A stretch of 64,000 bases of DNA from Spartobacteria bacterium. GTDB lineage: Bacteria; Verrucomicrobiota; Verrucomicrobiia; Chthoniobacterales; UBA10450. Numbering within the stretch: position 1 is the first letter of the stretch; every line of letters begins with the position of its first letter. Positions 19,463 through 35,478 of the stretch are shown piece by piece. Both the position numbers and the translations under genes were made by a program. Under the pieces are notes generated by a model. The model saw only the letters and a list, made by a program, of their open reading frames with translations. It searched no databases and was not told the DNA's origin. The stretch lies in the NCBI GenBank assembly GCA_003169975.1, contig PNAA01000021.1, positions 1-64,000 of the forward strand, read 5' to 3'.

Positions 19463-19479
19463 GGCGCTCAGAGAGCGCC
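19463..19479. other. Short hairpin at the end of the imuB N-terminal ORF
   Basis: GGCGCTC, loop AGA, GAGCGCC. The stop codon of the imuB N-terminal ORF (19468-19470) lies inside it. No T-run follows on the minus strand, so it is not a classical intrinsic terminator. Confidence 0.5.
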
Positions 19480-20010
19480 GCTCAGGCGCGGCAGATGGCG
19501 CAGGGTTTCAATCGGCAGCGGCGCGAGAAATTTTTGCGGATCATCGATCTGCAGGATCGGCCGCGCCAGGCAGGCGGCGAGAAAACTGAGATCGGGCGTC
19601 GTGGCGAGGCCGGCCTGCGCGGTCAATTGCAACTGGGCAAGTTGCCTAACGACGCGTTCGATATTCTCGCGGCAATTTCTTGACGAGCTAAATCGCACCG
19701 TGCAAACGCCGGGCGCGGTCGCCTCGATCTCCGGCGCCAGGGTCGCCGCGTGATGCAGTAAAATTTCGCCGGCGATTTTCTCCTGCGCACGCGCCCGCGG
19801 TTTGAGGATCAGGCACAAACAGCGCGCCAGCCCCTGGCTCGGCGTCATCCCTGCGCTTACGCCGGCTTCCGCCGCGCTTGGCGTGAGCTGCATGATGGTC
19901 GCTTTCGCTGCCTCATCATCGAGCAAGGCGAGCGGCTTTCGGTGCAACTCGGGCTCGTGCCGTAAGGCCGCTTGCAATTCAAAATCCGGGAGATAAAGCG
20001 CGGCGAACAT
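19468..20010 (-). CDS. imuB: ImuB, N-terminal half only (Y-family polymerase-like, mutasome)
   Basis: ImuB is the non-catalytic Y-family polymerase homologue that links ImuA and DnaE2 (ImuC) to the beta clamp during SOS mutagenesis. This 180-residue ORF covers the palm/fingers part: FAALYLPDFELQAALRH, GVSAGMTPSQGLARC, EIEATAPGVCTVRF and AGLATTPDLSFLAACLA, ending ...PLPIETLRHLP then RLSGAL and a stop. Normal ImuB continues here into the helix-hairpin-helix. That missing part is a separate ORF at 31218-32126 on the other strand. The start overlaps the imuA stop (TGATG), so translation is coupled to imuA. It ends beside a palindromic repeat. The frame has no internal stop; it may act as one half of a split protein. 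Confidence 0.85.
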   Translation of the reverse strand: MFAALYLPDFELQAALRHEPELHRKPLALLDDEAAKATIMQLTPSAAEAGVSAGMTPSQGLARCLCLILKPRARAQEKIAGEILLHHAATLAPEIEATAPGVCTVRFSSSRNCRENIERVVRQLAQLQLTAQAGLATTPDLSFLAACLARPILQIDDPQKFLAPLPIETLRHLPRLSGAL

Positions 20011-20675
20011 CAGCCGGCCCGGGCGATTTTGGGATCGCTCCTCCATTTGTTAGGCTGAGCGCGTTGTAACCGAATCTTCAGTTGCGCCTGCAAGTCGGCC
20101 ACGGCCACATCGAGCTGTAGAAGCGTCCAGCGATTTTCCAAAACCAGTTTCCATTGCGCGCTGCTGATCATGCTTCGCGGAGTGAGAACGAGAAACGCCG
20201 TCGGCGCCGGCTCGACCAAGCGTTGCAGGCGATACCAGTTGCTCGCGGGAATCCGGCTCAATTCCGTTAGCGGATTGAGAACGAGATCGAGGATGACGAG
20301 CGGAAAATTCCCGTCGCGCAACAGCAGATCGGCCGCCTGCATCGCTTCGCTCGTTTTCCGACAGCGCACCCAAAGGAGATGGCGCAACGCGGCGCCGCCG
20401 AGGGATGGCGGGGCGAACGAATCGCGGCCATCGATCAGCGCCATGAAATAGCGCTCACCGCAGGCGCGTTGCAGGAGCGCGGCGATCATCGACGCGCTGC
20501 CAGCACTCGGGGGCGCGCTGGTCAATTCCGTGATCGCCCCTTTCGTGAGGCCGCCGCCGAGCGCTTGATCGAAAAAGGGCAGCCCGGTGGCGAATGGATC
20601 CCCGGCAGGCAGGGATTCCTGCGGAAATTTTTCCGCCAGAAGTCTGCGCAGATCGATGATCTTGCCTGTCGCCAT
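20010..20675 (-). CDS. imuA: ImuA, SOS mutagenesis RecA-like protein
   Basis: RecA/SulA-related partner of ImuB in the SOS-induced error-prone mutasome. About 221 residues. FATGLPFFDQALGGGLTKGAITEL opens the RecA-like core, followed by SAGSASMIAALLQRA (Walker A-like but lacking GKT), YFMALIDGRDSFAPPSL, HLLWVRCRKTSEAMQAADLLL and FPLVILDLVLNPLTELSRIP. I start at the ATG at 20675 because the frame upstream crosses the operator. A TGTTC-TTTT-AAACA box (minus-strand sense) lies 25 bases upstream, indicating LexA control. It is followed immediately by the imuB N-terminal ORF. Confidence 0.88.
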   Translation of the reverse strand: MATGKIIDLRRLLAEKFPQESLPAGDPFATGLPFFDQALGGGLTKGAITELTSAPPSAGSASMIAALLQRACGERYFMALIDGRDSFAPPSLGGAALRHLLWVRCRKTSEAMQAADLLLRDGNFPLVILDLVLNPLTELSRIPASNWYRLQRLVEPAPTAFLVLTPRSMISSAQWKLVLENRWTLLQLDVAVADLQAQLKIRLQRAQPNKWRSDPKIARAG

Positions 20676-20700
20676 GCACGAAAGATGACATTGAATGATA

Positions 20701-20714
20701 TGTTTAAAAGAACA
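20701..20714. promoter_or_regulatory. LexA box upstream of imuA
   Basis: TGTTT-AAAA-GAACA on the plus strand matches the Verrucomicrobia LexA motif TGTTC-N4-GAACA at nine of ten positions. It sits 25 bases before the imuA start codon. The surrounding bases (TATGTTCT.TT.AACATAT in gene sense) match the box before the imuB C-terminal ORF. The motif is recalled from the literature on Verrucomicrobia LexA, not checked here. Confidence 0.8.
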
Positions 20715-20791
20715 TATTTCCACCGACCGCTCGATACCTTCCGCCCCTAAAAGCTGTGACACGAGCGGCAGAATTTGCTATAAGCGCCGGC

Positions 20792-22528
20792 ATGCCTCCA
20801 AACAAAACCTCTCCAGCATTTCCATTTCGCCCAGCGCTGCTCTTTCTCCGGCCGAGAATCGTCGGACTGGGAGCGCTGCTTTTCCTTGGGCTGTCGCTAC
20901 GGGCTTTTGCTGGTAGCGCGACATGGAATACCAACCCGGGAAGCAACTCCTGGAACACCGCCAAGAACTGGACTCCCGCTACTGTTCCCAATGGCCCGGA
21001 AGATCTTGCAAGTTTCAATGTTTCCAACATAACCGACCTGATCCTCGATACGGACATCGATCTCACCGCGATGATTTTTGATCCGGGAGCGAGTGCCTAC
21101 AATTTCACTCTTCCCCTTGGGTCTACGCTGAACTTTTTCGGAGACGGAATCACAAATGATTCGGGGGAGTTGCAAAGCTTCTTGCTCTCTATCCGCAAAC
21201 TCAATTTTTATAACCAAGCGACCGCTGGCAGTGAGACTCTCTTTCAAGCCGGTCAGATCAGCTTTTACGACAACGCCACAGCCGGTGAAGCAACTTTTGA
21301 AACCATCGCCAGCTTAATTGCGTTTCATGGCAGTTCCAGCGCCGACCACGGCACTTTCCTCAACGGCGGATTTGACCAACGGGACCACACCATAGACGGC
21401 ATTTCCTTTTTCGATCAGTCGTCTGCCGGTGAAGGTTATTTCGTCGATAACGCCTCCACGCGCGGTCTTGAGAACAACGGCTCTGTTTACATCGCCGCGG
21501 GCGCGACAGCGGATACCGCGACAGTTGTTAACATGGCTGGCACCTTTGTCGGCGCGCTTCCGGGTACCATGACAATCGACGGCACTGGAGCCAGTGGCAC
21601 TTTCTCAGCCCTTGGGAGCAACGTAGCGGGAGCTGCTGGCGGGCAAATCCTGGTCTTCGGTAATGCCGATAACGCTTCTTACACAGCGACAGGTGGGAGC
21701 AATGGTGGCAACGGCGGCATTTTGTTTTTTTCTCTGGGAGCACAGGGCGGTACCGCTCGGTGTACCGTCCTGGGGAACGCGACGATGAAGATGGGCACCA
21801 CTGACGGTATCGACCTTTCGATTGGTAGCCTCAATGGCGACGGTCTTGTCTTTATCACGACCTTGGGCTTTGGCGAGAAACAACTCACGGTCGGAACGAA
21901 CAATCTTGATGCGACCTTTTCTGGGGTTATCGGCAATGGGATCGACCAGGCAGCGTCAGCCGGAAGTTTGCTTAAGACCGGTAGTGCAACCTTTACTTTG
22001 GCCGGTGAGAATACCTACACCGGTGGAACCGTCGTTCAGGAAGGCAAGCTTATTGTCGCTACCCAAACCGGCTCCGCAACCGGTCCCGGGCGGGTGCGCG
22101 TCGATGCCGGAACCCTCGGGGGCACGGGAGTGATTGAGGGCAGGGTGCGGGTCGGCGCCGCCGGCACCAGTGCCTTTCTTTCTCCCGGAATAACTGGAGT
22201 AGGCATGCTTGAGTTGCACAAAGACCTCGTGTTCGCCCGCCATGCCACCTACGACTGCGAGATAGACACGGATCAGTCAAAAGCGGATGTCGTAAGCGCA
22301 AAGAAAGTAATCATTCAAAGCAGCGCAATGTTTTCTCTCACTGAACTGGGAACAGCAATTCTTCCCATTGGCACGACCTTTCGGGTGATTGAAATGAAAC
22401 ACCTCGGTCCCATCGTGGGGACGTTTGCTAATTTGCCGGACCGAGCGGTCATCGCCGTTAGCAATCGTTATCAAGCCAGCTACGAAGGGGGCGATGGCAA
22501 CGATCTAACCCTTACCGTCGTGCCCTAG
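20792..22528 (+). CDS. Secreted PATR (autotransporter-associated beta-strand repeat) protein
   Basis: About 578 residues. A long signal segment (about 1-40, with FPFRPALLFLRPRIVGLGAL and ending RAFAG) is followed by a repetitive beta-helix passenger. Near residue 400, SAGSLLKTGSATFTLAGENT and the following YTGGTVVQEGKLIVA form a clear passenger-associated transport repeat. The last 140 residues resemble the end of such passengers; I see no terminal beta-barrel. It is likely cell-surface or secreted. It is transcribed away from imuA across a short intergenic region. Its codon use is visibly less GC-rich and it has no GCCTAAC word, unlike its neighbours, so it could have been acquired. Confidence 0.8.
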   Translation: MPPNKTSPAFPFRPALLFLRPRIVGLGALLFLGLSLRAFAGSATWNTNPGSNSWNTAKNWTPATVPNGPEDLASFNVSNITDLILDTDIDLTAMIFDPGASAYNFTLPLGSTLNFFGDGITNDSGELQSFLLSIRKLNFYNQATAGSETLFQAGQISFYDNATAGEATFETIASLIAFHGSSSADHGTFLNGGFDQRDHTIDGISFFDQSSAGEGYFVDNASTRGLENNGSVYIAAGATADTATVVNMAGTFVGALPGTMTIDGTGASGTFSALGSNVAGAAGGQILVFGNADNASYTATGGSNGGNGGILFFSLGAQGGTARCTVLGNATMKMGTTDGIDLSIGSLNGDGLVFITTLGFGEKQLTVGTNNLDATFSGVIGNGIDQAASAGSLLKTGSATFTLAGENTYTGGTVVQEGKLIVATQTGSATGPGRVRVDAGTLGGTGVIEGRVRVGAAGTSAFLSPGITGVGMLELHKDLVFARHATYDCEIDTDQSKADVVSAKKVIIQSSAMFSLTELGTAILPIGTTFRVIEMKHLGPIVGTFANLPDRAVIAVSNRYQASYEGGDGNDLTLTVVP

Positions 22529-22571
22529 CACAAAGAGGCCGACCGAGAAGAACCCTCCCAAAGGAAAGGTG

Positions 22572-23180
22572 CTACCGCGCCACCTGTTTCCGCACGAGCG
22601 ATGTCATCACGCCCTGGATGCGCAACTCCCGCGCCGGAACCAGATCCGGAAACCGCGGATTCTCCGCCTTCAAGTAGGGTCGCCCCCGCTCAATGACATA
22701 ACGTTTCAAGGTCGTCTCGCCATCGATCAACGCCGCCACGATGTCGCCATTTTTCGCGGTCTGCCGATCTTCCAAAATCACGATGTCTCCATCGAGAATA
22801 TGCGCGCCGATCATCGAGTCGCCCCGCACGCGCAAGGCGAAAGTGCGGGCGCTCCGTGAGGCGTTGAGCGATTCGAGGTCGAGCGCGACGTGCCCCTCGA
22901 TGTTTTGCTCGGCGAGGGTGGCCATACCGGCGGGAATCTCCCCGTAGATCGGGATGTCGACCACCCGGCTCTGCGGCGCGGCGGTAATCAAGGCGCGCGC
23001 CTTGCGCGCATGACGCTGGAGAAACCCTTTCCGCTCGAGCGCGGCAATGTATTGCATGACCGAGGTCTGACTCGCGAAGCCGAAGTGTTCCTGAATCTCG
23101 CGCGTGCTCGGCGTCAGCCCTTTGGTGCGCTGTTCGGCCTGGATGAAGTGCAGGATGTTCTTTTGCCCGGGCGTGAGCAT
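22572..23180 (-). CDS. lexA: LexA repressor
   Basis: SOS repressor of 202 residues. The N-terminal winged helix (LTPSTREIQEHFGFASQTSV, about 22-41) binds DNA. The C-terminal S24 peptidase domain has the cleavage bond at Ala84-Gly85 (GEIPAG), the nucleophile Ser122 (RGDSMIGAHILDGDIV) and the general base Lys159 (ETTLKRY). The ATG at 23180 gives the normal length; the open frame upstream crosses a repeat. A weaker match to the LexA box overlaps the start codon, suggesting self-regulation. It lies between the two halves of imuB and would control both. Confidence 0.95.
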   Translation of the reverse strand: MLTPGQKNILHFIQAEQRTKGLTPSTREIQEHFGFASQTSVMQYIAALERKGFLQRHARKARALITAAPQSRVVDIPIYGEIPAGMATLAEQNIEGHVALDLESLNASRSARTFALRVRGDSMIGAHILDGDIVILEDRQTAKNGDIVAALIDGETTLKRYVIERGRPYLKAENPRFPDLVPARELRIQGVMTSLVRKQVAR

Positions 23181-23187
23181 ATGAACA
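23174..23187. promoter_or_regulatory. Candidate LexA box at the lexA start codon
   Basis: TGAGC-ATAT-GAACA on the plus strand matches TGTTC-N4-GAACA at eight of ten positions and overlaps the lexA ATG. One half-site is perfect. The position is unusual for an operator, so this is tentative. Confidence 0.4.
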
Positions 23188-23220
23188 TGTTGGCGAAAAC
23201 CGCCGCGCGCGCAAGGTGCA

Positions 23221-23294
23221 ATGTGGGAGGGCCTTTGTGCCCCGAGGGGGAGAGGCAGCCACCGCGGATCGGGGCACAAAGGCCCATCCCACAT
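23221..23294. repeat. Palindromic repeat, ATGTGGGAGGGCC type
   Basis: The arms ATGTGGGAGGGCCTTTGTGC (continuing CCC) and its near complement ending GGCCCATCCCACAT enclose about 27 bases. It lies between the lexA and hscB genes, both on the minus strand. The ATGTGGGA head also occurs in the palindrome at 45456-45534. Confidence 0.8.
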
Positions 23295-23301
23295 TAGCCA
23301 A

Positions 23302-23832
23302 TTAGCCAGCAGCCAACTGAAATCTCTTTTCCGCGGTCTGCTCGAGGAGGCGGGTGAAATAGGCGATGGAATCATAGCGCTCCACCATCCGCGACATCTC
23401 GTTAGGCCAGTCGATCTCGCCGCGCGGCAATTGCGCGAGCTCGGCCTGGTAGGTGGCCCGCAACTGCTCCTCCAGCTTGCCTAACCGTTGCTCCAGCTTC
23501 CCCCGCTCCGGCTGGAGCAGCGCGCGCGCGAGGGTGCTTCCCGCCGCCTGGTTCCGGAGCAGCCAGCGTTCGACCTCGCGCAGCAAGGTTCCGCTGTTCC
23601 AGAAAAGTTCCGCCACCGACGGCGGAACCGGGCGACCGGCGGTGAGCTCGGCACCTTCCAGCGTGAGCAGATGATGCAGGCGCAGCTTCGGATCGCTCAG
23701 AACGCGAAACGCTTCGTTTAATTCCGCATCTGCGGGTGCCGCGCGGGCCAGCGAGAAATATTTTTCCTTCAGCTTTTCCGGATCGAGCCAGGGCCGTCGC
23801 GCTTCACCAAGGAGCGCGAAGTAATCGGTCAT
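23302..23832 (-). CDS. hscB: HscB-like iron-sulfur co-chaperone (J-domain protein)
   Basis: About 176 residues. It has an N-terminal J-like domain (DYFALLGEARRPWLDPEKLKE, then ELNEAFRVLSDPKLRLHHLL) and a C-terminal three-helix domain of the HscB type (EVERWLLRNQ... and EMSRMVERYDSIAYFTRLLEQ). The HPD tripeptide is not visible at its normal place, so interaction with an Hsp70 may be altered. The start overlaps the iscA stop (ATGA). Linkage to iscA supports a role in iron-sulfur cluster delivery. The upstream open frame to 23982 lies inside iscA and is rejected. Confidence 0.78.
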   Translation of the reverse strand: MTDYFALLGEARRPWLDPEKLKEKYFSLARAAPADAELNEAFRVLSDPKLRLHHLLTLEGAELTAGRPVPPSVAELFWNSGTLLREVERWLLRNQAAGSTLARALLQPERGKLEQRLGKLEEQLRATYQAELAQLPRGEIDWPNEMSRMVERYDSIAYFTRLLEQTAEKRFQLAAG

Positions 23833-24209
23833 GCCGAGAAGCTTTCGCCACAGGAACAATGCGCGACGGCATTCGGATTCGTCACTTTGAAGCCGCCTTT
23901 TTGCAGGTCGTCGCTGAAATCGAGCACCGACCCGCTGACGAAAAGTGCGCTCTTCGGATCGACCACGACTCGTACGTTGCAAGACTCGACGATGATGTCG
24001 CGATTCGCGGGGCCATCGACCAGATCCATCTTGTACTGCAGCCCCGAGCAGCCGCCGCCGATGACCGCAACGCGCAACGCTCCATGCGCGCGACCCTGCT
24101 TTTGCAGGAGGGACGTGAGTTTGCGCGACGCGTTCTCGGTCACTTTGACGAGACGCTCGTTGCCGATCTTGAACTTGATTTCGCCCGGGGGCGGAGAGGC
24201 TGCGGACAC
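23829..24209 (-). CDS. iscA: IscA/HesB/ErpA-family iron-sulfur assembly protein
   Basis: A-type iron-sulfur carrier of about 126 residues. The three conserved cysteines are present in GGGCSGLQYKM and the C-terminal CSCGESF. VTENASRKLTSLLQ and PKSALFVSGSVLDF are family-typical. There is no ATG in the frame before the domain; the GTG at 24207-24209, nine bases after the upstream dus stop, is the likely start. The stop overlaps the hscB start, so dus-iscA-hscB form one transcription unit. Confidence 0.9.
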   Translation of the reverse strand: MSAASPPPGEIKFKIGNERLVKVTENASRKLTSLLQKQGRAHGALRVAVIGGGCSGLQYKMDLVDGPANRDIIVESCNVRVVVDPKSALFVSGSVLDFSDDLQKGGFKVTNPNAVAHCSCGESFSA

Positions 24210-24217
24210 AGGGGAAT

Positions 24218-25201
24218 TTACGCCGCTTCGAGACAGGTTGCCAAATGGAGGCTCGCGATTTCTTCCACCTCCTGCAAAGTGGACACGCGCTGAAACCTTT
24301 CGCGCAGCAATTTGCTGCCAGGCAGTCCCTTTGAATAGGCCATCAAGCGGCCGCGCATCGAACGCATGGCGAGGTCTTCGACGCCGCATTCCGCGACCGC
24401 CAGTTCGCAATGCCGCTGGATGAGTGCCCATTTTTCCGCCGGCTCCGGCGGCGGCAGCAATTCGCTGGTCGCGAGATAATGTTTCGTCTGCGAAAAAATC
24501 CACGGAGAACTCATCGCGGCGCGCCCGATCATGGCGCCGGCGATGCCGGATTCGGTCCGGCGTCGGGCCACGTCGGCCGCGGAAAAGAGATCGCCATTGC
24601 CGATCACCGGGATGGACACGGCGGCCGCCACTTGCGCGATCACGTCCCAATCGGCGGCGCCGGAGTAGCCCTGGGCCCGGGTGCGACCGTGGACCGCGAG
24701 AGCAGCGATGCCCAACGATTCCAAAAGTTGCGCCACGCGCACGGCATTGACCGTGGCGTCGTCCCAGCCGGTCCGGATTTTTGCCGTGACCGGGAGCGGG
24801 GCGACTGCCCTAACGACCGCTTCCGCCACCGTGCCTAACGTTGGACAATCCTTGAGCAGGGCGGAGCCGCCGTTCTTCGCGACCACCTTGTTGACCGGGC
24901 AACCAAAGTTGAGATCGATGAAATCCGGCTGCACCCATTCGACCACCGCCCGCGCGGCCTCCGCCATGTGTTCGGCGTTCCCACCGAAAAGCTGGACACC
25001 GATCGGTCGTTCGATGGCGTCGAAGTCGAGGTAGCCGCGGGTGCGGGCATTGCGTCGGAAGACGCCTTCCGACGAAACAAACTCCGTCACCAAAACATCG
25101 GCGCCGCGCTCCTTGCAGAGCTGCCGGAAAATTTTATCCGAGACGCCGGCCATCGGCGCGAGGTAGAGCGGGAAACGCCCGTTGGAAAACCAGGAAAGCA
25201 T
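24218..25201 (-). CDS. dus: tRNA-dihydrouridine synthase (DusB-like)
   Basis: FMN-dependent enzyme that reduces uridines in tRNA. 327 residues. YLAPMAGVSDKIFRQLC starts the TIM barrel, DFIDLNFGCPVNKVVAKNGG contains the catalytic Cys, and VTAKIRTGWDD, AVHGRTRAQGYSGAADWDVI and VIGNGDLFSAADV bind FMN and substrate. A C-terminal helical tRNA-binding domain follows. Start ATG at 25201. It heads a unit with iscA and hscB. Two GCCTAAC-related words lie close together inside it (24809 and 24833). Confidence 0.93.
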   Translation of the reverse strand: MLSWFSNGRFPLYLAPMAGVSDKIFRQLCKERGADVLVTEFVSSEGVFRRNARTRGYLDFDAIERPIGVQLFGGNAEHMAEAARAVVEWVQPDFIDLNFGCPVNKVVAKNGGSALLKDCPTLGTVAEAVVRAVAPLPVTAKIRTGWDDATVNAVRVAQLLESLGIAALAVHGRTRAQGYSGAADWDVIAQVAAAVSIPVIGNGDLFSAADVARRRTESGIAGAMIGRAAMSSPWIFSQTKHYLATSELLPPPEPAEKWALIQRHCELAVAECGVEDLAMRSMRGRLMAYSKGLPGSKLLRERFQRVSTLQEVEEIASLHLATCLEAA

Positions 25202-25229
25202 GGGAGGGATTAAATGACTAATTTCGAAG

Positions 25230-25339
25230 GACGAATTCCGAAGGAATGACGAAGCCCGAAGGCCGGAAGGTTGGATGAGTCGGTTTTGTCATTCGGCATT
25301 GGTCATTCCTTCGTCATTCATCATTCGGCATTGGTCATC
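25230..25339. repeat. Direct and inverted repeats, CATTCGGCATTGGTCAT type
   Basis: CATTCGGCATTGGTCAT occurs at about 25290-25306 and again at about 25322-25338. GAAGGAATGACGAAG at about 25240-25254 is the inverse of CTTCGTCATTCCTTC-like words nearby. The right edge overlaps the end of the next gene, whose last codons (MTNAE, stop) are made by the repeat. Confidence 0.75.
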
Positions 25340-25827
25340 AAACCCATCACTTCCGCCTGCACTCCGCCGAGTTCGTCGAGGCGCAACTGCGGATCGGGCA
25401 CGACAAAGACATCCCCGGTTTTCGCATGCTCATAGATCAGGACGCGGCCGTGGTCGCCGTTCTCGGTTTGGATCTGCTTGAGGATCCGTTTTCTCTCCAG
25501 CATGGCCGCGAGCACGTAACAGGCATTGGCGTTCGCGCGATCCGCGGCCGCGACCAGGCGTCGAAAAAGTTCCTCCGCATTTTCCTTCGGCAACGGCTCC
25601 GGCGGCGCGGCGGGCGGCGGCTCGAAACGGGCCCGCCAAAAAGAAAACGGCTGCAAATTTTCGTTGCGTTGCTGCCAGGCTTCTTCGCTCAAATCCTGCC
25701 GGCGAAAACCAGCGCCCTCGCGAAAGAGCAGCGTGTAAAAATTCTCACCGGGCGCAAACGGGCGGCCCGTGACCGCGCACGCTTCGGCCCGGTGTTGGAT
25801 CGACCATTCGTCCGCCAGAGGATTCAT
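25321..25827 (-). CDS. Conserved hypothetical protein
   Basis: A 168-residue soluble protein of unknown function. WSIQHRAEACAVTGRPFAPG near the N-terminus suggests a small structural motif (a Cys and His are present but no full zinc ribbon). LSEEAWQQ and FWRARFEPPP follow, then a helical region FRRLVAAADRANANACYVLAAMLERKRILKQ, and a final VLIYEHAKTGDVFVVPDPQL. I believe similar proteins occur in planctomycetes and verrucomicrobia but cannot name the family. The start overlaps the stop of the LptF-like gene (ATGA). The C-terminal five residues come from a repeat. Confidence 0.7.
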   Translation of the reverse strand: MNPLADEWSIQHRAEACAVTGRPFAPGENFYTLLFREGAGFRRQDLSEEAWQQRNENLQPFSFWRARFEPPPAAPPEPLPKENAEELFRRLVAAADRANANACYVLAAMLERKRILKQIQTENGDHGRVLIYEHAKTGDVFVVPDPQLRLDELGGVQAEVMGLMTNAE

Positions 25828-26972
25828 GCCGCGCGCAAACTACGCCAGAGCGCAGCCAGATTAAAGCTGGGCGCTTCGCGGTTCGTCGCGCGCAGATGGA
25901 GCAGATAAAGGCCGATCACAAAAAAGATCAGGTTCGGTGCCCAGGCGGCGGTGAACGCCGAAACCCGGTCCCCCTCCCCGAGCGCGAGAAACAAGTGGGT
26001 CAAAAAATTCATCGAGAAGACGAGCCCGATCGCCACCGACACGCTGGCCAGAATCCCGCGCCGGGAGAAACCGATCCCGAGCGGCGTCGCCATGATGGCG
26101 ACCACGAAACAAGTCCAGGGCAGCGCCCAACGGTATTGCAACTGGGTGCGGAAGGGGGCGAGGAGCGTCTCGGGAAAATCGGCGTTGAAGCGTAAATAAT
26201 CCTGCAGCTCGGAGATGCCGAGAAACTCCGGGCGGACGTTGGCGCTGCTCAAGCGATAGGGGGTCTCGCTCCAGCCGGTGAGCAGAAGATAGGGGACTAC
26301 CACATCGTTCGTAATGTTGCCGGCCGTGTCGTAGGTCGCCATCCTCGTCTTTTCCAGCCGCCAGGCTTTGATCGCCGGCTCGTAGAAAGCCTCGGTCGAA
26401 ATATAGTTCCGGACGATATTCTCCTGCGCATCCTGCTGCACGATTTGCACGCCGAAGAATTCATTCGAGTTCGGCCGGAAACGCGAAACATACCAGGTGC
26501 GATGGTCGGTGCGGTTGCGAAAAACCTGTCCGTAGATAATCACGTCGCGCACTCCCCCGCGATTGACCTGGTCGAAGAAATTTTTCCGGGCCAGCTCGGC
26601 GTGGGCGGCGAGCGAGTAATTCAAAGCGAGCGTCGCCCCGGTAGTGAGGAGACCAATCACGAGCAACGGCAGGACGACTCGCGGCACGCTCACTCCGGCC
26701 GTCAACATCGAGACGATCTCATTCGAGCGCGACATCCGGCCGAGGGCGAAAAGGAGCGCCAGGAGCAACGAAACAGGCAAGAGGATCACCATCACCTGGG
26801 GGATCTGGGTCCAGTAAAATTTCACCACCAGCGCGAGCGGCGCGCGCTCATCGAAGATGGTCGAGCTGTTGTCGCTGATGTCGAAGATCAGCCAGATCGA
26901 AAGGAAGCCGAGGATGCAATAGACGTACGGCTGGAGGAAATTTCGAATGATGTAGCGGTCGAGCAGTCTCAC
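25824..26972 (-). CDS. LptF/LptG-family lipopolysaccharide export permease
   Basis: Inner-membrane permease that, with LptB, extracts lipopolysaccharide for transport to the outer membrane. 382 residues. RLLDRYIIRNFLQPYVYCIL starts the first helix. There are six hydrophobic helices in two groups of three, split by a large periplasmic beta-jellyroll (about residues 130-280). SRSNEIVSMLTAGVSVPRV is the coupling-helix region typical of this family. GTG start at 26970-26972. The gene diverges from the dinG-like gene. Whether it is LptF or LptG cannot be settled without its partner. Confidence 0.88.
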   Translation of the reverse strand: MRLLDRYIIRNFLQPYVYCILGFLSIWLIFDISDNSSTIFDERAPLALVVKFYWTQIPQVMVILLPVSLLLALLFALGRMSRSNEIVSMLTAGVSVPRVVLPLLVIGLLTTGATLALNYSLAAHAELARKNFFDQVNRGGVRDVIIYGQVFRNRTDHRTWYVSRFRPNSNEFFGVQIVQQDAQENIVRNYISTEAFYEPAIKAWRLEKTRMATYDTAGNITNDVVVPYLLLTGWSETPYRLSSANVRPEFLGISELQDYLRFNADFPETLLAPFRTQLQYRWALPWTCFVVAIMATPLGIGFSRRGILASVSVAIGLVFSMNFLTHLFLALGEGDRVSAFTAAWAPNLIFFVIGLYLLHLRATNREAPSFNLAALWRSLRAA

Positions 26973-26980
26973 GGGATTGG

Positions 26981-27008
26981 CGATTTACGATTTTCGATTT
27001 GCGAATTG
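26981..27008. repeat. Four tandem CGATTTN heptamers
   Basis: CGATTTA, CGATTTT, CGATTTG and CGAATTG follow each other in the short divergent gap between the LptF-like and dinG-like genes. AT-rich, so it may contribute to promoter function, but no clear -35/-10 pair is assigned. Confidence 0.55.
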
Positions 27009-27083
27009 ACTCCGGCTCCGCGCCATTGTTCCGGTGGCTTCCGAGACAATGCGCCCAGCGCAAACCGGCAAACGCGATTGCTC

Positions 27084-29066
27084 ATGATTGCGCTCAAAGA
27101 TTCCCTTGAGAGCGACTTTGTCGAGCGCGTGCGGACGATTTTTGCCGAGGACGGCCTGTTGGCGAAAGCGCGCAACTTCGAATATCGGCCCGAGCAGCAG
27201 GCGATGGCCGCGGCGGTCGCGCGGACATTGGAGGAGGAACGCCATCTCGTCGTCGAAGCCGGTACCGGAGTCGGCAAGTCACTCGCTTATCTCGTGCCGG
27301 CGATCCTCTTCGCGGTCGAGAAAAAGAAGAAGGCGATCGTCTCGACGCACACCATCAACCTGCAGGAGCAACTCCTCTACAAGGACATCCCGATCGTAAA
27401 AAAAATTCTGCCGGTCGAGTTCGAGGCCGCGCTCATGAAAGGACGGCAGAATTATCTTTGCCCCCGGCGGCTGGAGCGCGCCCTGCAAAACGCGAACGAA
27501 CTCTTCAACACCACCGAGCAGGCCGACCTGGCCCGGCTCGCCGACTGGGCGCGCACGACGAGCGATGGGACGTTGAGCGACCTGCCGCTCGAACCCGATC
27601 CGAAAGTCTGGACCCAGGTTTGCAGTGAAGCGCACCTCTGCACGCAGAAGACCTGCGGGCAAAATTCGCGCTGTTTTTTCCAGCAAGCGAGGAGGCGGCT
27701 GCTCGCGGCCGACGTGGTGGTGATCAATCACACCCTCCTCTTCATGCTGCTCGGCAGCCCGGAAGAGCAGGAGGATCGCGCAGAAGGCTATCTTTTCCCT
27801 AACGACTTCATCATTTTCGACGAAGCGCACACCATTGAACAGGTGGCTTCCCGGCAGATCGGGATCGGGATTTCGCAGTACGGATTGCGCGCCACCATCC
27901 AGCGGCTCTATAACGCGCGCTCCAAGAAAGGGCTTTTCACCGTGACGCGCGACGCGGCCGGCGTGACCCTGGCCGCTTCGCTCGTCGAGGAGGCGGACCG
28001 CTTTTTCGCCGCGATCGATGAACGCGCCAACTTCAAGAAAGGCCGCGAATACCGCGTGCGCGAAGCGGATTTTGTCGACGACCAAATCACCGCGCGCTTG
28101 ATGGCGCTGCAGGGGCGCATCATCGAAGTGGTCCGGAAAACCGAGGACGAATTTCTCAAGTCGGAGCTGCAGGAACTCGGCCGTCGCATCGCGGCGGCGC
28201 GCGAAGGGATCGGGATTTTTCTGCAACAAAGCGAAGAGAACTACGTCTACTGGATCGAGCGCACGGGGAAGACTTCGCAGAATATCTCGCTCAACGCCGC
28301 TCCTGTCGATGTCGCGCCGGTCCTCCGCCGGATGCTCTTTCGCGAAAACTGCGCGAGCGTGATGACAAGCGCGACGCTCGCCGTTGGCCGGCCGGATCTC
28401 GCGTATTTCCGGCGACGGATCGGGGCGGATGAAGCCGAGCCGTTGCAGCTCGGCAGCCCGTTCGATTTCCAAAAACAAATGAAGCTGTTCGTCGTGCGAA
28501 AAATGCCCGACCCGCGCGACGAAGCCTACAGCGCAGCGCTGGCGGAATGGGTGGCACGCTTCGTCGAAGATACGGAGGGGCGCGCGTTTGTGCTCTTCAC
28601 CAGCTACCGCGCGATGCAACAACTGGCGCTGGAGATGGAGGATTTTTTCGCGAGCCGCAAAATGAATTTGCTTGTGCAGGGCAAAGGCGCGCCGCGCAGC
28701 CAGCTCCTCGAGCAATTCAAAACGACGCCGCGCAGCGTGCTCTTCGGGACCGACAGTTTTTGGATGGGCGTCGATGTCCCGGGCGACGCGCTCTCCAACG
28801 TCATCATCACGCGCCTTCCGTTCGCCGTCCCCGATCATCCGCTGATCGAAGCGAAGCTCGAACTCATTCAAGCGCGCGGCGGCGACGCCTTCACGGAATA
28901 CTCGTTGCCGGAAGCGATCCTGAAATTCCGGCAGGGCGTCGGGCGCCTGATCCGGACCAAGAGTGACCGCGGCATCGTGGTCATCCTCGACAACCGGGTC
29001 GTGACGAAAACTTACGGGCGGGCGTTTCTGAAAGCATTGCCGGAGTGCCCGGTGAAGATTTTGTGA
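27084..29066 (+). CDS. dinG: DinG/XPD-type ATP-dependent DNA helicase
   Basis: Superfamily 2 5'-to-3' helicase of about 660 residues. YRPEQQAMAAAVARTL precedes Walker A (EAGTGVGKSLAYL). A four-Cys cluster (VCSEAHLCTQKTCGQNSRC) at about 172-190 should bind 4Fe-4S. INHTLLF, the DEAH box (IFDEAHTIEQ), TSATL, LFTSYRAM, GTDSFWMGVDVPGD and QGVGRLIR complete the helicase motifs. I start at the ATG at 27084; the open frame upstream overlaps the divergent LptF gene. DinG is an SOS gene in some bacteria, and this copy lies in an SOS-rich block, but I see no clear LexA box before it. Confidence 0.92.
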   Translation: MIALKDSLESDFVERVRTIFAEDGLLAKARNFEYRPEQQAMAAAVARTLEEERHLVVEAGTGVGKSLAYLVPAILFAVEKKKKAIVSTHTINLQEQLLYKDIPIVKKILPVEFEAALMKGRQNYLCPRRLERALQNANELFNTTEQADLARLADWARTTSDGTLSDLPLEPDPKVWTQVCSEAHLCTQKTCGQNSRCFFQQARRRLLAADVVVINHTLLFMLLGSPEEQEDRAEGYLFPNDFIIFDEAHTIEQVASRQIGIGISQYGLRATIQRLYNARSKKGLFTVTRDAAGVTLAASLVEEADRFFAAIDERANFKKGREYRVREADFVDDQITARLMALQGRIIEVVRKTEDEFLKSELQELGRRIAAAREGIGIFLQQSEENYVYWIERTGKTSQNISLNAAPVDVAPVLRRMLFRENCASVMTSATLAVGRPDLAYFRRRIGADEAEPLQLGSPFDFQKQMKLFVVRKMPDPRDEAYSAALAEWVARFVEDTEGRAFVLFTSYRAMQQLALEMEDFFASRKMNLLVQGKGAPRSQLLEQFKTTPRSVLFGTDSFWMGVDVPGDALSNVIITRLPFAVPDHPLIEAKLELIQARGGDAFTEYSLPEAILKFRQGVGRLIRTKSDRGIVVILDNRVVTKTYGRAFLKALPECPVKIL

Positions 29067-29136
29067 GACGGTGGGGTTTGCTCAACTCCGTTCGGCGTGC
29101 CCAGATTTCCCACCGTGACCAGTTACTTTTCTTGCC

Positions 29137-31071
29137 ATGAAGCGTTTCGTTCTTGCCGCCGCGGCAGCCTTTCTCGTCGGTCTGGCCGTCGGGCGTTACA
29201 CCCTCCCGCAGCCCCGGCTAACGACCGCGCCCGTTTCCTTTCCGGGCAATTCGTTAGGCGAAATAACGGCGGCGCCTGGTTTCGCATCCTCTCCGGCGAT
29301 CGCTTCCTCCCCGCGCCATTCCAGCACAACGGTGGCCGAACCTGCGCCCACGGAAACAATCATCGCCGCCATCAAAAATGCGCTGGCGCGGCCCCCTAAT
29401 CGACACGACTACGTCGAGCTGAGCAGATTGATCGACGGCACCGACCCGAAAAATGTGCGTCCGGTGCTCGACGCGCTGCAAACTCTGCCTGACCAACGCG
29501 AGAAATCGAACTACCAGGCGATGCTCATCGCGCGCTGGGCGGAGGGCGATCCGCAGGCCGCGCTCGCTTATGCGCAGACCGCCGGCAGCGCTTCGGATCG
29601 CAAATCGGCGGTCCCGGCCGCCCTCCACTCCTGGGCGGAGAAAGATGCGACCGCTGCCAAGGCCTGGGTCCTGCAAATGCCGGCCGGCCAAGACCGCGAT
29701 CGCGCCCTGCAAGCGGTGGTCTCCTCGTTAGCGGAAAACGATCCAGCAGCCGCGCTCGACATGATGCAAACGTTGCCCGCCACCGGCAGCGGACGGCAAA
29801 ATTTTTACTGGCCGATTTTTTCTCGTTGGGCCAGCACCGACCCGGTGACAGCCGCGGCGCGCGCCGTGCAATTGCCGCCCGGTTCCGGGCACGATACCGC
29901 CCTCCAGGTCGTCGCCTCCACCTGGGCGAATCAAGATGCCGAGGCCGCTTTCGCGTGGGCGAACACTTTGCCGCCCGGCCAGGGACGCAACAACGCCGTG
30001 CAAAGCATTTTATCCAGCTGGGCAAATAAGGATCCGCAACGCGTCGCCACCGTGGCCGCGGCCCTGCCGGCCGGTGCGATGCGCGATCAGGCGACCGCCA
30101 GCGTCGCGCGGCAATGGGCGCAGAACGATCCCACTGCCGCGCTCGCCTGGACGCAGGAACTTCCAACTGGCGAAGGACAACGCCGCGCGCTGCAAAGCGT
30201 CCTGACCAGTTGGGCGCAAAGCGATCCGGCGGCGGCGGCGGATTACGTGGCGACGCTGCCCGCGGGTAAAACGCAGGAGGACGCAGTGAGATCGATCGCC
30301 CAGCAACTCGCGAATGCCGATGTGCAACTGGCATTGCATTGGGCGCAAAAACTTCCCGATGGCGCGACGCGGCAAAACGCGCTCAATCCCATCGTCGCGC
30401 AATGGAGCGAAACGGATCCGGCCGCCGCCGCGGATTTTGTCCTGGGCAATAGCAGCGGAGACACGCGCCGGAATTTGCTCGAAGATATTTCGCGCCGCTG
30501 GGCGCAGAGCGATCCGCAAGCCGCCTTGGGTTGGGCGCAAGATTTGTCCGACCCCGCCGCCCGCGCCGCCGTCCTGCCGAACATCATTTCCGCGGTGGCC
30601 GAAAGCGATCCGGCGAGAGCCGCGCAGATGACGCTGCGACTCTCCGGCGAAGCGCAAACCGCGGCGGCCCCTTCCATTATCTCGCAATGGGCGGGGAGCG
30701 ATGCGCAGGCCGCCAGCACGTGGGCCGCCTCGTTTCCAGAAGGAAAAACGCGCGTCCAGGTTTTTCAAAATTTAATCAGTCGTTGGGCGCAAAGTGATCC
30801 GGCCGCGGCCGCGAGCTGGCTCGGGAATTTATCCGAGGGCCCTTCGCGCGACCAGGCGGTGAGCGTTTTCACCAACCGGATCAGTTCCTCCGATCCGCAA
30901 GCCGCAGTGCAATGGGCGGCGACGATCAGCAACGATAGCCTGCGCAACAGCCAGGTAGAATCCACCGTCCGCACCTGGCTGAGAAGCGATCCGCACAACG
31001 CCTCCGCCTGGATCACCAATTCGTCGTTGCCGGACGAGACGAAGGCGCGGTTGCTGAATCCGGGCGAGTAA
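29137..31071 (+). CDS. Exported WAxxDPxAA-repeat protein, unknown function
   Basis: A 644-residue protein. An N-terminal signal or anchor helix (KRFVLAAAAAFLVGLAVGRY) is followed by a linker. From about residue 110 to the end there is a repeat of about 31-33 residues with the pattern WAxxDPxAAxxWAxxLPxGxxRxxALxxV. Examples are WAQNDPTAALAWTQELPTGE and WAQSDPAAAADYVATLPAGK. Roughly 15 units are visible; each looks like a pair of helices, so the protein should form an extended solenoid in the periplasm. I do not recognise a named family. The neighbour downstream is a palindromic repeat and the imuB C-terminal ORF. Confidence 0.75.
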   Translation: MKRFVLAAAAAFLVGLAVGRYTLPQPRLTTAPVSFPGNSLGEITAAPGFASSPAIASSPRHSSTTVAEPAPTETIIAAIKNALARPPNRHDYVELSRLIDGTDPKNVRPVLDALQTLPDQREKSNYQAMLIARWAEGDPQAALAYAQTAGSASDRKSAVPAALHSWAEKDATAAKAWVLQMPAGQDRDRALQAVVSSLAENDPAAALDMMQTLPATGSGRQNFYWPIFSRWASTDPVTAAARAVQLPPGSGHDTALQVVASTWANQDAEAAFAWANTLPPGQGRNNAVQSILSSWANKDPQRVATVAAALPAGAMRDQATASVARQWAQNDPTAALAWTQELPTGEGQRRALQSVLTSWAQSDPAAAADYVATLPAGKTQEDAVRSIAQQLANADVQLALHWAQKLPDGATRQNALNPIVAQWSETDPAAAADFVLGNSSGDTRRNLLEDISRRWAQSDPQAALGWAQDLSDPAARAAVLPNIISAVAESDPARAAQMTLRLSGEAQTAAAPSIISQWAGSDAQAASTWAASFPEGKTRVQVFQNLISRWAQSDPAAAASWLGNLSEGPSRDQAVSVFTNRISSSDPQAAVQWAATISNDSLRNSQVESTVRTWLRSDPHNASAWITNSSLPDETKARLLNPGE

Positions 31072-31074
31072 AGG

Positions 31075-31158
31075 TGTAGAGGCGGGCTGTCGCCCGCTGA
31101 GGGGGACGTCGCCGGTGAGCAAAGTCCACCTTTTGCGGCCGACACGGCCGCCGCTACA
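31075..31158. repeat. Palindromic repeat, TGTAGAGGCGG...CCGCCGCTACA type
   Basis: The ends TGTAGAGGCGGGC and GGCCGCCGCTACA are imperfectly complementary. Inner pairs GCGGGC/GCCCGC and GCGGCC/GGCCGC make further stems. It lies between the WAxxDP-repeat gene and the LexA box ahead of the imuB C-terminal ORF, at one inferred inversion boundary. Confidence 0.75.
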
Positions 31159-31175
31159 TTGGCCGGCTATTATTA

Positions 31176-31189
31176 TGTTCTGTTGAACA
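31176..31189. promoter_or_regulatory. LexA box upstream of the imuB C-terminal ORF and dnaE2
   Basis: TGTTC-TGTT-GAACA is a perfect match to the TGTTC-N4-GAACA LexA motif described for Verrucomicrobia (from memory). It lies 28 bases before the start codon, almost the same spacing as at imuA. This indicates that the second half of the split mutasome is also SOS-controlled. Confidence 0.88.
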
Positions 31190-31217
31190 TATTCTTTTCC
31201 GGCTCTAATTTTCGGCC

Positions 31218-32126
31218 ATGAAGGACGAGCGCGCCGCGGAAATTTCGCACATTTTCTCGATCCTCCACAAATGGGGCGTGCACACGTTAGGCGAACTCGC
31301 CGCCCTCGCGCCGGATGAACTCGGCGCCCGCCTTGGCCCGGTCGCGGTGCGGCTCTGGGAACAGGCCAACGGCCGGGCAACGCGGCTCTTGCAACTCGTC
31401 AGGCCAACGGAAATTTTCGCCGAGCAGCTCGAATTCGAGCACGAGATCGAGACGGCGGAACCGCTCCTTTTTGTTCTCCGGCGCTTTCTCGAGCAATTAA
31501 ACCTGCGCCTCGGCGCGCTCTATTTCGTCGCGCAAGAGATCACGCTCGAAATGACTTTTGCCGACAAGTCCCGCTACGAGCACCGCTTCCACATTCCCGA
31601 TCCGACCAACTCGCTGGAGATTTTATTTCGGTTGCTCCAGACCCATCTCGACACTTTTCGAGCGGACCACCCGATCGTGGCCGTGGGGCTCGCCGCGCAG
31701 GCGAACCAACCGGCGCGGCAACAGTTTCATTTTTTCGAGACGCCCTTGCGCGACCCGGGCCGGCTGCACGAAACGCTCACCCGGCTCACGGGATTGTTAG
31801 GCCGAGAGCGGGTCGGGACGCCGATCCTGGAGGATTCGCATCGGCCCGATGCCTTTCATCTCGAGGCGTTTTCCTGGGAGTTGGCGCCCGCGCCTAACGA
31901 TTTACCGATGATGATCGGTCCGGCGTTTCGCCGGTTTCGCGCCGAATTTTTGCCCTCATGCGATGAGACGGTCATGGCACGACAGGGTCCTTATCTCGCC
32001 TCGGGTGATTGGTGGGACGAAAAGAAGTGGCAGCGGGCGGAGTGGGATTTGGAGCTCGCGGACGGCGTGGTTTGCCGCGTGCAGGAACGGGCCGGCGGAT
32101 GGGAAGTCGAGGGGATGTATGACTGA
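31218..32126 (+). CDS. imuB: ImuB, C-terminal half only (little finger and C-terminal domain)
   Basis: A 302-residue ORF that is the missing second half of ImuB. It begins MKDERAAEISHIFSILHKWG and continues VHTLGELAALAPDELGARLG, the helix-hairpin-helix that normally follows the palm/fingers. LFVLRRFLEQLNLRLG and the little-finger region follow. The C-terminus ends CRVQERAGGWEVEGMYD, matching the usual ImuB ending. It starts with its own ATG and LexA box. With the 180-residue N-terminal half at 19468-20010 it totals 482 residues, the size of one complete ImuB. dnaE2 follows in the same direction after a 72-base palindromic repeat. An unbroken frame and a promoter suggest that it is still made. 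Confidence 0.87.
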   Translation: MKDERAAEISHIFSILHKWGVHTLGELAALAPDELGARLGPVAVRLWEQANGRATRLLQLVRPTEIFAEQLEFEHEIETAEPLLFVLRRFLEQLNLRLGALYFVAQEITLEMTFADKSRYEHRFHIPDPTNSLEILFRLLQTHLDTFRADHPIVAVGLAAQANQPARQQFHFFETPLRDPGRLHETLTRLTGLLGRERVGTPILEDSHRPDAFHLEAFSWELAPAPNDLPMMIGPAFRRFRAEFLPSCDETVMARQGPYLASGDWWDEKKWQRAEWDLELADGVVCRVQERAGGWEVEGMYD

Positions 32127-32143
32127 GCCCAGCGTTTTTTTTG

Positions 32144-32215: not shown

Positions 32216-32238
32216 CCCCACACTGAGATTGCCGCCCC

Positions 32239-35200
32239 ATGTCCTATGCCGAACTGCACACCGCCAGTGCTTTCAGTTTTCTCCGCGGCGCTTCTTTTCC
32301 TGAGCAGCTGGCGGAGCGCGCAGCGGAGTTGGAGCTACCGGCTGTCGCGCTGCTCGATCGCAACGGCGTCTACGGCGCGCAGCGTTTTTCCGTCGCCTGT
32401 CGCGAGCATGGAGTGCGGCCGATTGTCGGTTGCGACCTAACGATGGAATGCGGCGCAGTTCTGCCGGTGCTGGTGGAAAATCGCGTCGGCTACGCCAACC
32501 TTTGCTCCCTCCTCACCCAGGCGCATCTGCGTAGCGCAAAGGGAAGCTGCGCGGTGCGGTGGGAAGAATTGGCCGAATTCTCCCCGGGGTTGATCGCACT
32601 GCTGGGTAGCGCATGCGTCTCGCGTGCTGGCGACGGCGTCCTCGCTGTCGCGAACTTTTCTGATGATCGACGATTTCAAGGCAAGCGACGCGTGCAGAAA
32701 AGTTTGTCGCGCTGGAACAGCGCGACCAGCACGCGAGACGCGTGCGCTACCCAGCCAGGAGACCGCGTGCGACGACTGCTCGACGCTTTTGGCCGGGACC
32801 AGGTTTACGTCGAGTTGCAGCGGCACCTCGTGCGCGGTGAAGAGCGGGTAAACCGCCAGCTGATCGATCTCGCCCAGCACCACAGTCTCCCGCTGCTCGC
32901 GACCAACGGCGTGCAACACGCCACGCCTCTGGGTCGCGAAGTGCTCGACGTTTTTACCTGCATCCGCGAACACACCCATCTCGACGCCGCCGGCACCCGC
33001 CTAACGACAAATGCGGAACGCCATTTGAAGAGCGCCGCGGAAATGAAAGCGCTCTTTCGCGATCGGCCGGACGCGATTGAGAACACCTTCCGCCTCGCGG
33101 AACGCCTCCAGTTTTCCCTCGCGAACCTCGGCTACGATTTCCCCGCTTACCCCGTGCCGGAGGGCCATTCGATGGATTCCTTTCTGCGCACGATCACCCT
33201 CTTCGGCGCGCAACAACGCTACGCCGCGATCAGCCGCGCGGTACAGGCAAAGCTCAACGAGGAACTGGCGCTCATCCAAAAGCTCGGGTTCTCCGGTTAT
33301 TTTTTGATCGTCTGGGACATCGTCAATTTCTGCCGCGAACACAACATCATGGTGCAGGGGCGGGGCAGCGCGGCGAATAGCGCGGTCTGTTTTTGTCTCG
33401 GCATCACCCCAGTCGATCCGGTGAGCAACCATCTCGTCTTCGAACGCTTTTTGAGCGAAGGACGCAAAGGCTGGCCGGATATCGATCTCGATCTCCCGAG
33501 CGGCGACCGGCGCGAAAGCGTCATCCAGGAAATTTATCGGCGTTACGGCAAACACGGCGCCGCGATGACGGCGAACGTAATCACTTATCGCGGCCGGAGC
33601 GCGGCGCGCGAGATCGGCAAATCGCTCAACTTTGCGCCGAACATTCTCGACCGTTTCTCGCACCTCTTTGCCCACGGCGATTTCCCGCACACCCTTGAGC
33701 TTCAGGCGCAGATCGAGCAATCGGGTCTGCCCAAGACGCATCCGCGCATGCCGGCATTCGTTAGGCTTTATCAATCGATTTACGGCTTGCCACGGCATCT
33801 CGGGCAGCACTCCGGCGGGATGATCATCTGCCGGGACAAACTAAGCTCCTTTGTCCCGCTGGAGAACGCGTCGATGCCCGGCCGGGTCGTCGCGCAGTGG
33901 GACAAGGATGACTGCGAGGATCTCGGGATCGTGAAAGTCGACTTGTTAGGCCTGGGCATGATGTCGGTCATGCAGGACACCTTCGAGCTTTGCCGCGCGC
34001 GCGGGCGGCCGCTCGACCTGGCCCACATTCCGAAGGATAACCCCGCCACTTTCGCGATGATGCAGCGGGCCGACACGATCGGCGTTTTCCAGATCGAGAG
34101 CCGCGCCCAGATGGCGACGCTGCCGCGGATGCAGCCGAAATGTTTTTACGACGTGGTGATCGAGGTCGCGATCATCCGCCCGGGGCCGATCCAGGGCGAC
34201 ATGGTGCATCCTTATCTGAACCGGCGCGCGGGGCGCGAGCCGGTGACCTATTTCGACGCGCGGCTGGAACCGATCCTCGAGCGGACGTTAGGCGTGCCCT
34301 TGTTTCAGGAGCAAATGCTCAAGATCGCGATGATCATGGCCGATTTTTCCGGCGCGGAAGCGGAAGAGCTGCGCCGCGCGCTCAGTTTCCATCGCTCGCC
34401 CGAGCGGATGGAAAAAGTGAGCGTCAAGCTGCGCGCCGGGATGGAAAGAAATGGCGTCGCGCCTGAGGTGATCGTGAAGATCATTCAAGCGATCAGCTCG
34501 TTTGCGCTCTATGGATTTCCGGAGTCGCACGCGATCAGTTTCGCCATTCTCGCCTACGGGAGCGCGTATCTGAAAGTGCATCGCGCGGCGGAGTTTTACG
34601 CCAGCCTGTTGAACAATCAGCCGATGGGGTTTTATGCCCCGGCGACGATCGTGAAGGACGCGCACCGCCATGGCATCCGGATGCGCCCGGTTTGTGCAGC
34701 GGAGTCGCAATGGCGTTGCGCGGTCGAGTCGAATGAGAGTGTGCGGCTGGGGTTTTGTGTCGTAAATGGTTTGCGGCAGGAGCATGCTGAAGAACTCGTT
34801 AGGCGACGCGGGGAGAGTGCCTTTCGGTCGCTGGAGGATTTCAAGCGGCGCGTTGCATTAACAAAAGACGAGCTGCGCGCGCTGGCGGAACTCGGCGCGC
34901 TCAATTGTTTCGCGGAGCATCGGCGTGCCGCGCTCTGGAACGTCGAAGAACCGGCGCCGAACGGGCTCTTTGCTGTAGCCGGGGGCGTTGACCCCAGCTC
35001 CTCTGTGGCCCCGTTTCTCCCCGCCGGGTTCAACGCCCCCGGCTACAACGGACCGCTCGCTCCCATGACGCTGCCGGAACGGGTGCAGGCCGATTACGCA
35101 CGAATGAACCTCACGACGGGCCCGCATCCGATGAAGTTGTTGCGGGAACAGTTGCCTAACATCTCGCGGGCCACCGATCTGGCGCAAGCGCGTCATGGCG

Positions 35201-35478
35201 CCACGGTGCAGATCGCCGGGAACGTGATTTGCCGGCAGCGACCCGGGACGGCGAAGGGGTTTGTCTTCATCAGCCTGGAGGATGAAACCGGGGTCGCGAA
35301 TGCGATTGTCACGCCCGATTTGTTTGAACGCATTCGCCTGGTGATTACGGAAGAGCCGTTTCTGCTCATCGAAGGTGAAGTGCAAAACACGGAGAACGTG
35401 GTGCTCGTGAAGGCGCGGAACATTCGCCCGCTGGCCCACGCCCAACTCGCCGGAAGCGAGTCGCACGATTTTCGTTAG
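32239..35478 (+). CDS. dnaE2: Error-prone DNA polymerase III alpha subunit DnaE2 (ImuC)
   Basis: Catalytic polymerase of the ImuA-ImuB-DnaE2 mutasome, 1079 residues. An N-terminal PHP domain begins YAELHTASAFSFLRGASFPE. The polymerase palm has QGRGSAANSAVCFCLGITPV, WPDIDLDLPSGDRRESV with the metal-binding aspartates, and IVKVDLLGLGMMSV. GIFQIESRAQM-like FQIESRAQMATLPRM and IIRPGPIQGDMVHPYL follow. The OB domain is near the C-terminus. Two palindromic repeats are inserted in frame: residues about 122-172 and about 912-936. The frame stays open across both, and neither touches the aspartates. It lacks its usual imuA-imuB upstream; only the imuB C-terminal half precedes it. Confidence 0.93.
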   Translation: MSYAELHTASAFSFLRGASFPEQLAERAAELELPAVALLDRNGVYGAQRFSVACREHGVRPIVGCDLTMECGAVLPVLVENRVGYANLCSLLTQAHLRSAKGSCAVRWEELAEFSPGLIALLGSACVSRAGDGVLAVANFSDDRRFQGKRRVQKSLSRWNSATSTRDACATQPGDRVRRLLDAFGRDQVYVELQRHLVRGEERVNRQLIDLAQHHSLPLLATNGVQHATPLGREVLDVFTCIREHTHLDAAGTRLTTNAERHLKSAAEMKALFRDRPDAIENTFRLAERLQFSLANLGYDFPAYPVPEGHSMDSFLRTITLFGAQQRYAAISRAVQAKLNEELALIQKLGFSGYFLIVWDIVNFCREHNIMVQGRGSAANSAVCFCLGITPVDPVSNHLVFERFLSEGRKGWPDIDLDLPSGDRRESVIQEIYRRYGKHGAAMTANVITYRGRSAAREIGKSLNFAPNILDRFSHLFAHGDFPHTLELQAQIEQSGLPKTHPRMPAFVRLYQSIYGLPRHLGQHSGGMIICRDKLSSFVPLENASMPGRVVAQWDKDDCEDLGIVKVDLLGLGMMSVMQDTFELCRARGRPLDLAHIPKDNPATFAMMQRADTIGVFQIESRAQMATLPRMQPKCFYDVVIEVAIIRPGPIQGDMVHPYLNRRAGREPVTYFDARLEPILERTLGVPLFQEQMLKIAMIMADFSGAEAEELRRALSFHRSPERMEKVSVKLRAGMERNGVAPEVIVKIIQAISSFALYGFPESHAISFAILAYGSAYLKVHRAAEFYASLLNNQPMGFYAPATIVKDAHRHGIRMRPVCAAESQWRCAVESNESVRLGFCVVNGLRQEHAEELVRRRGESAFRSLEDFKRRVALTKDELRALAELGALNCFAEHRRAALWNVEEPAPNGLFAVAGGVDPSSSVAPFLPAGFNAPGYNGPLAPMTLPERVQADYARMNLTTGPHPMKLLREQLPNISRATDLAQARHGATVQIAGNVICRQRPGTAKGFVFISLEDETGVANAIVTPDLFERIRLVITEEPFLLIEGEVQNTENVVLVKARNIRPLAHAQLAGSESHDFR
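32602..32754. repeat. GGGTAGCGCA-type palindromic repeat inserted in dnaE2
   Basis: The 29-base terminal arms (CTGGGTAGCGCATGCGTCTC... and its complement) differ by one base. Total length 153 bases, exactly 51 codons. Inner words GCGAACTTTTCTG and CAGAAAAGTTTG match the copy at 19301-19451. It encodes ACVSRAGDG...TSTRDACATQP within dnaE2 without a stop. Confidence 0.88.
34974..35047. repeat. TGTAGCCGGGG-type palindromic repeat inserted in dnaE2
   Basis: The arms TGTAGCCGGGGGCGTTGACC and its complement GGTTCAACGCCCCCGGCTACA surround about 32 bases. It encodes VAGGVDPSS...FNAPGY in frame near the C-terminus, between the helical domain and the OB region. It is the same family as the copies at 4819 and 12501. 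Confidence 0.87.

Follow-up and report, generated by a model that had tools for sequence, protein, structure and literature searches.

A 64,000-nucleotide stretch of DNA from a Spartobacteria bacterium (assembly GCA_003169975.1, contig PNAA01000021.1, positions 1 to 64,000; hereafter the window) encodes the components of the ImuA-ImuB-DnaE2 mutasome, with ImuB divided between two genes, imuBN and imuBC, on opposite strands. The genes and boxes at this locus are:

19468..20010, minus strand: imuBN, the N-terminal half of ImuB (palm, fingers and first thumb helices of a Y-family fold predicted to be catalytically dead), 180 residues, ATG at 20010 and stop at 19468, second gene of the imuA operon
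20010..20675, minus strand: imuA, 221 residues from the ATG at 20675, first gene of the imuA-imuBN operon
20701..20714, minus strand: LexA-type box TGTTCTTTTAAACA, one mismatch, 25 bases 5' of the imuA ATG
22572..23375, minus strand: lexA, the SOS repressor, conserved part at about 23192-22575, upstream of imuA
31176..31189, plus strand: LexA-type box TGTTCTGTTGAACA, an exact TGTTC-N4-GAACA, 28 bases 5' of imuBC
31218..32126, plus strand: imuBC, the C-terminal half of ImuB, 302 residues, with thumb helix-hairpin-helix, little finger, clamp motif QFHFF, candidate RecA-NT region and C-terminal beta region, directly 5' of dnaE2
32239..35478, plus strand: dnaE2, an error-prone C-family polymerase, 3' of imuBC

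The positions and strands of both halves had been given in a preliminary description of the window, and all of these coordinates hold. Profile searches assigned imuBN to the Pfam family IMS (E=6e-11), imuBC to IMS_C (E=6e-8), dnaE2 to the NCBIfam error-prone DNA polymerase (1194 bits) and lexA to TIGR00498 (6.9e-48), with imuA matching the NCBIfam ImuA model at 2.5e-9, under that model's curated cutoff. The proposal of a complete ImuB in two pieces, with nothing obviously lost, is supported. The window genome (4.47 Mb in 59 contigs, 97% complete) matches each ImuB half once, and the second, full-length imuB that might have overturned this reading was not found in it.

The split was sought in sister genomes and recurs in dozens of independently assembled members of the window's GTDB family, which comprises 83 species genomes in 14 genera of uncultured Verrucomicrobia (Chthoniobacterales). 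Across the family imuBC is present in 68 of the 83 genomes, and the search for imuBN matched 74, about 73 of them real (G035 gave a weak DinB-like match only). Every scored family genome encodes ImuB as two separate genes, never as a single polypeptide. The longest open frame among the 64 family imuBC genes closed at both ends has 398 residues, with 16-76 open residues ahead of the helix-hairpin-helix in the 63 closed genes where this motif was found; imuBN stops 2-16 residues past PLPIETL in 68 of 72 cases, the remaining four lying outside the motif or open reading frame (ORF) rule used. Fused frames examined elsewhere in the order have at least 484 residues, except two contig-edge cases, and among 384 genomes of the class the 93 from outside the family with a clear ImuB all have it fused, at 478 residues or more, except for one of those contig-edge cases. 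Within this class sample the split is unique to the window's family. Short ImuB frames in the outgroup genomes G105 and G109 were considered as independent splits and rejected as contig edges. A tree of the C-terminal region places a single change between split and fused ImuB (support 99), with G085 and G087 as the nearest fused relatives, and the split is a family-wide trait with a single origin in the family ancestor. Most absences of a half fall in incomplete genomes or at the ends of contigs, and two genomes (G033 and G035) jointly lack imuA, both ImuB halves and dnaE2. At least three others (G038, G041 and G042) carry the halves on different contigs, apart from each other's neighbours, and retain both.

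Aligned with fused ImuB, the two halves meet in a short, variable loop that joins the first thumb helices to the helix-hairpin-helix, and nothing conserved is missing there. ImuBC has gained a short helical start that is partly conserved (ERxxEIxxILxILHKWG). A similar helical insert lies exactly at the split point in the fused ImuB of one outgroup (G104, locus L068). A high-confidence model (AlphaFold pLDDT 88.5, pTM 0.80) has ImuBN folding by itself and resembles the palm and fingers of DinB/Dpo4 (Foldseek E 1e-11 to 1e-9). In profile alignments the catalytic DE pair of DinB corresponds to G101 and V/I102, a pattern identical to that of fused ImuB, and ImuBN lacks the catalytic acidic residues. 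The IMS_C domain is found in 34/34 family members of ImuBC, which also has a profile match to the thumb and little finger of PolIV (7yll). A QFxLF-like motif is kept across the family (Q169, F170 and F173 of ImuBC) and probably serves as a beta-clamp binding motif. Past it lie a conserved helix-glycine-strand region and then a beta-rich C-terminal region, both modelled with low confidence.

Both ImuB halves are under purifying selection. The median pairwise ratio of nonsynonymous to synonymous substitution rates (dN/dS; NG86, pairs with dS<1.5) in the family is 0.173 for imuBN, 0.154 for imuBC and 0.197 for imuA, which upholds the earlier view that the two open halves are not a dead gene. The ratio of N-terminal to C-terminal distances is lower in the split family than in fused lineages (1.11 vs 1.29), so imuBN shows no relaxation compared with fused ImuB. 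Partial distance correlations, calculated for 15 genomes with the background of four neighbouring genes removed, connect imuBN with imuBC (r 0.40, p=0.002), imuBN with imuA (0.34) and imuBC with dnaE2 (0.33), with none between imuBC and imuA (0.07).

The paired LexA boxes are conserved in the family, as is the break point. An exact box lies 5' of imuBC in 48 of 66 family genomes and at the matching protein position in 0 of 27 fused-ImuB genomes, and therefore exceeds chance. The imuA box, with one mismatch at most, precedes 63 of 68 family genes, and nearly all adequately covered genomes have a box ahead of imuA-imuBN and another ahead of imuBC or its operon. Wherever the sequence suffices, a HEAT-like gene directly upstream of imuBC in the same direction is itself preceded by a box with 0-2 mismatches. 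The preliminary description had assigned one box to each half, at 25 and 28 bases; the distances are correct, but the first box is that of imuA, in whose operon imuBN comes second. Its suggestion of dual SOS control is borne out, as far as sequence can tell, by the boxes ahead of both operons across the family. The imuBN start overlaps the imuA stop in the window (TGATG), the two genes overlap or lie at most 14 bp apart in 55 family genomes, and imuA accompanies imuBN in most of the family; gaps of at least 97 bp in some genomes are partly an ORF-extension artefact and were excluded from use.

The family has two divergent imu operons and not a single-operon cassette, and the usual gene order (arrowheads giving direction) is TPR> <imuBN <imuA <lexA <hscB <dusB ... 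<lptFG dinG> (HEAT-like>) imuBC> dnaE2> <gnd. In most of the family lexA adjoins imuA, whereas in the window an ORF of the PATR type (autotransporter-associated repeat, 20756-22528) intervenes, divergent from imuA and with the imuA LexA box between the two; it is absent from this position in most relatives. An upstream box, GCAAGTTCAAATGAACA, is present at most lexA genes of the family but was not seen 5' of lexA in the window or in L084, and lexA autoregulation may be altered in these genera. The HEAT-like repeat protein gene upstream of imuBC (window 29137-31071; also L085, L086, L088, L090-L094 and L185) is joined to imuBC-dnaE2 in several genera, with a gap of 15-76 bp and a LexA box ahead of it, and looks like a candidate member of the SOS operon. 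Between imuBC and dnaE2 the window carries a near-perfect 29-nt inverted repeat (32143-32216, 97% complementary) that could form a hairpin or attenuator separating the two genes. The fused-ImuB outgroup locus L068 has a second exact LexA box directly 5' of dnaE2 (positions 5924 and 11637).

The present arrangement arose by one ancient rearrangement, dating to the family ancestor. The local inversion of 19.46-31.2 kb put forward earlier as its origin is unsupported by outgroup gene order: in outgroup families dinG lies elsewhere in the genome and the lexA-hscB-dusB-lptFG-dinG block is not inside the imu locus. No inverted repeat was found linking the edges of the 11.7-kb segment, and a simple inversion of that segment is not confirmed. 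Several outgroups carry a distant lexA paralogue (about 38% identity) beside imuA, so lexA adjacency is unsafe evidence for the ancestral order. An ancestral inversion would be compatible with the divergent geometry, but other rearrangements are too.

We consider it likely that the SOS mutasome of this family has four subunits, two of them the pieces of ImuB, both obligate. ImuB broke once, in the family ancestor, at the loop described above. According to this model, ImuBN, the inactive palm and fingers, would be produced together with ImuA from a LexA-controlled operon, probably with translational coupling, and ImuBC with DnaE2 from a second. Damage would lead to LexA cleavage and switch on both operons together, after which ImuBC would act as the hub that brings DnaE2 and ImuA to the clamp, using its clamp-binding motif and regions known or modelled elsewhere to hold these partners, and ImuBN would dock non-covalently, completing the shape of ImuB. 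The clamp motif of ImuB is essential in other bacteria (PMC10421592), where ImuB binds ImuA via RecA-NT and ImuB-C, and models place DnaE2 on the thumb and ImuB-C (PMC12926913). ImuBC as hub is the simplest model because the clamp motif and the ImuA- and DnaE2-contact regions all lie in the C-terminal half. We infer co-induction, physical association of the halves and error-prone bypass by the rebuilt complex. More tentatively, and with the balance of probability against it, the hub may be switchable, with ImuBC-DnaE2 and ImuA-ImuBN forming half-complexes under separate promoters that become mutagenic only on meeting, in a manner tunable by their ratio; mutagenesis would then need induction of both operons.

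Several observations weigh against the four-subunit model. In reduced ImuBs elsewhere nothing but the thumb, little finger and ImuB-C is left (PMC12926913), and the C-terminal half might therefore work without the N-terminal half. The ImuBC model is only of moderate quality (pLDDT 69, pTM 0.40; thumb and little finger recognisable), the partial correlations come from a small sample, many family genomes are incomplete, fragmented assemblies, and imuBC of G026 (L013 1501-2445) contains one in-frame TAA, a sequencing error or decay. The most reduced ImuBs known, which consist of just these three parts, also lend themselves to a different explanation, in which ImuBC, ImuA and DnaE2 are the whole mutasome and ImuBN has a separate ImuA-linked job, such as regulating ImuA or binding DNA, and does not dock. 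The coupling of imuBN to imuA, and the tracking of imuA distances by those of imuBN, are in line with this idea. We nevertheless judge it improbable: ImuBN retains the palm-finger fold usual for ImuB and stops precisely at the former domain boundary, its strongest residual correlation is with imuBC, which itself shows none with imuA, and no well-sampled genome was found keeping one half with the other clearly lost.

That the halves are remnants of a dead gene staying open by chance could draw on the stop in G026 and on the two genomes without the whole module, but is refuted by dN/dS of about 0.15-0.17, by the same break across the family's genera and by the conserved LexA boxes and clamp motif, and we hold it to be very improbable. 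Equally remote is a rejoining of the halves by a split intein or RNA trans-splicing; intein-joined split polymerases do exist (archaeal PolB, cited in PMC4104785), but the tails past the break in the N- and C-terminal halves are too short for intein halves, Pfam scans revealed no intein domain, and the locus gave no match to a group II intron or any other RNA. An assembly chimera or genome-bin error, for which the 59 contigs of the window genome might speak, is the least credible of all, being refuted by the identical split and gene order in many independent assemblies, including ones of 10 and 20 contigs.

By sequence the system shares with the ImuA-ImuB-DnaE2 mutasome of the Mycobacterium, Pseudomonas and Caulobacter type the same three components, a dead Y-family part, a clamp motif and LexA boxes, but its ImuB consists of two polypeptides from two operons. 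The split mycobacterial cassette (imuA'-imuB / dnaE2) breaks between genes, whereas the break described here lies inside imuB. DnaE2X systems, which combine an inactive PolY, a standalone ImuB-C and RecA, have been presented as a possible case of split ImuB alongside DnaE2 (PMC12926913). However, their break leaves PolY and a standalone ImuB-C, whereas the cut in this family precedes the thumb helix-hairpin-helix and leaves thumb and little finger in the C-terminal half; they use RecA in place of ImuA, which the family has; and their split was proposed to be ancestral (PMC12926913), whereas that of the family is derived from a fused ImuB. With respect to the reduced ImuBs without palm and finger elements (PMC12926913), the C-terminal half corresponds to the part they always keep, but the family retains palm and fingers in a conserved gene of their own. 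Split archaeal PolB (Methanobacteriales, Nanoarchaeum; PMC4104785) is likewise a polymerase-family protein made from two genes, sometimes non-adjacent, but that split is attributed to inteins, of which ImuB of this family bears no trace, and ImuB is an inactive accessory factor. The PMC12926913 survey covered 3070 complete genomes and mentions 'Verrucomicrobia' once, concerning Pol I. We found no report of this ImuB split in the literature searched, and the claim that a split ImuB mutasome under dual SOS control is new stands to that extent.

What is new about the split ImuB is its subunit architecture, fixed in a family, and not the machine. It represents a gene fission within a Y-family protein, fixed family-wide, with matching SOS control retained. 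In many bacteria damage-induced mutation is driven by the mutasome of which ImuB is the hub, and the natural separation of its palm and fingers as a gene of their own makes their role directly testable, with halves that can be deleted, swapped or mixed singly. In this family of uncultured Verrucomicrobia, a protein known elsewhere as a single chain appears to have been turned into two subunits, each in its own putatively damage-controlled operon.
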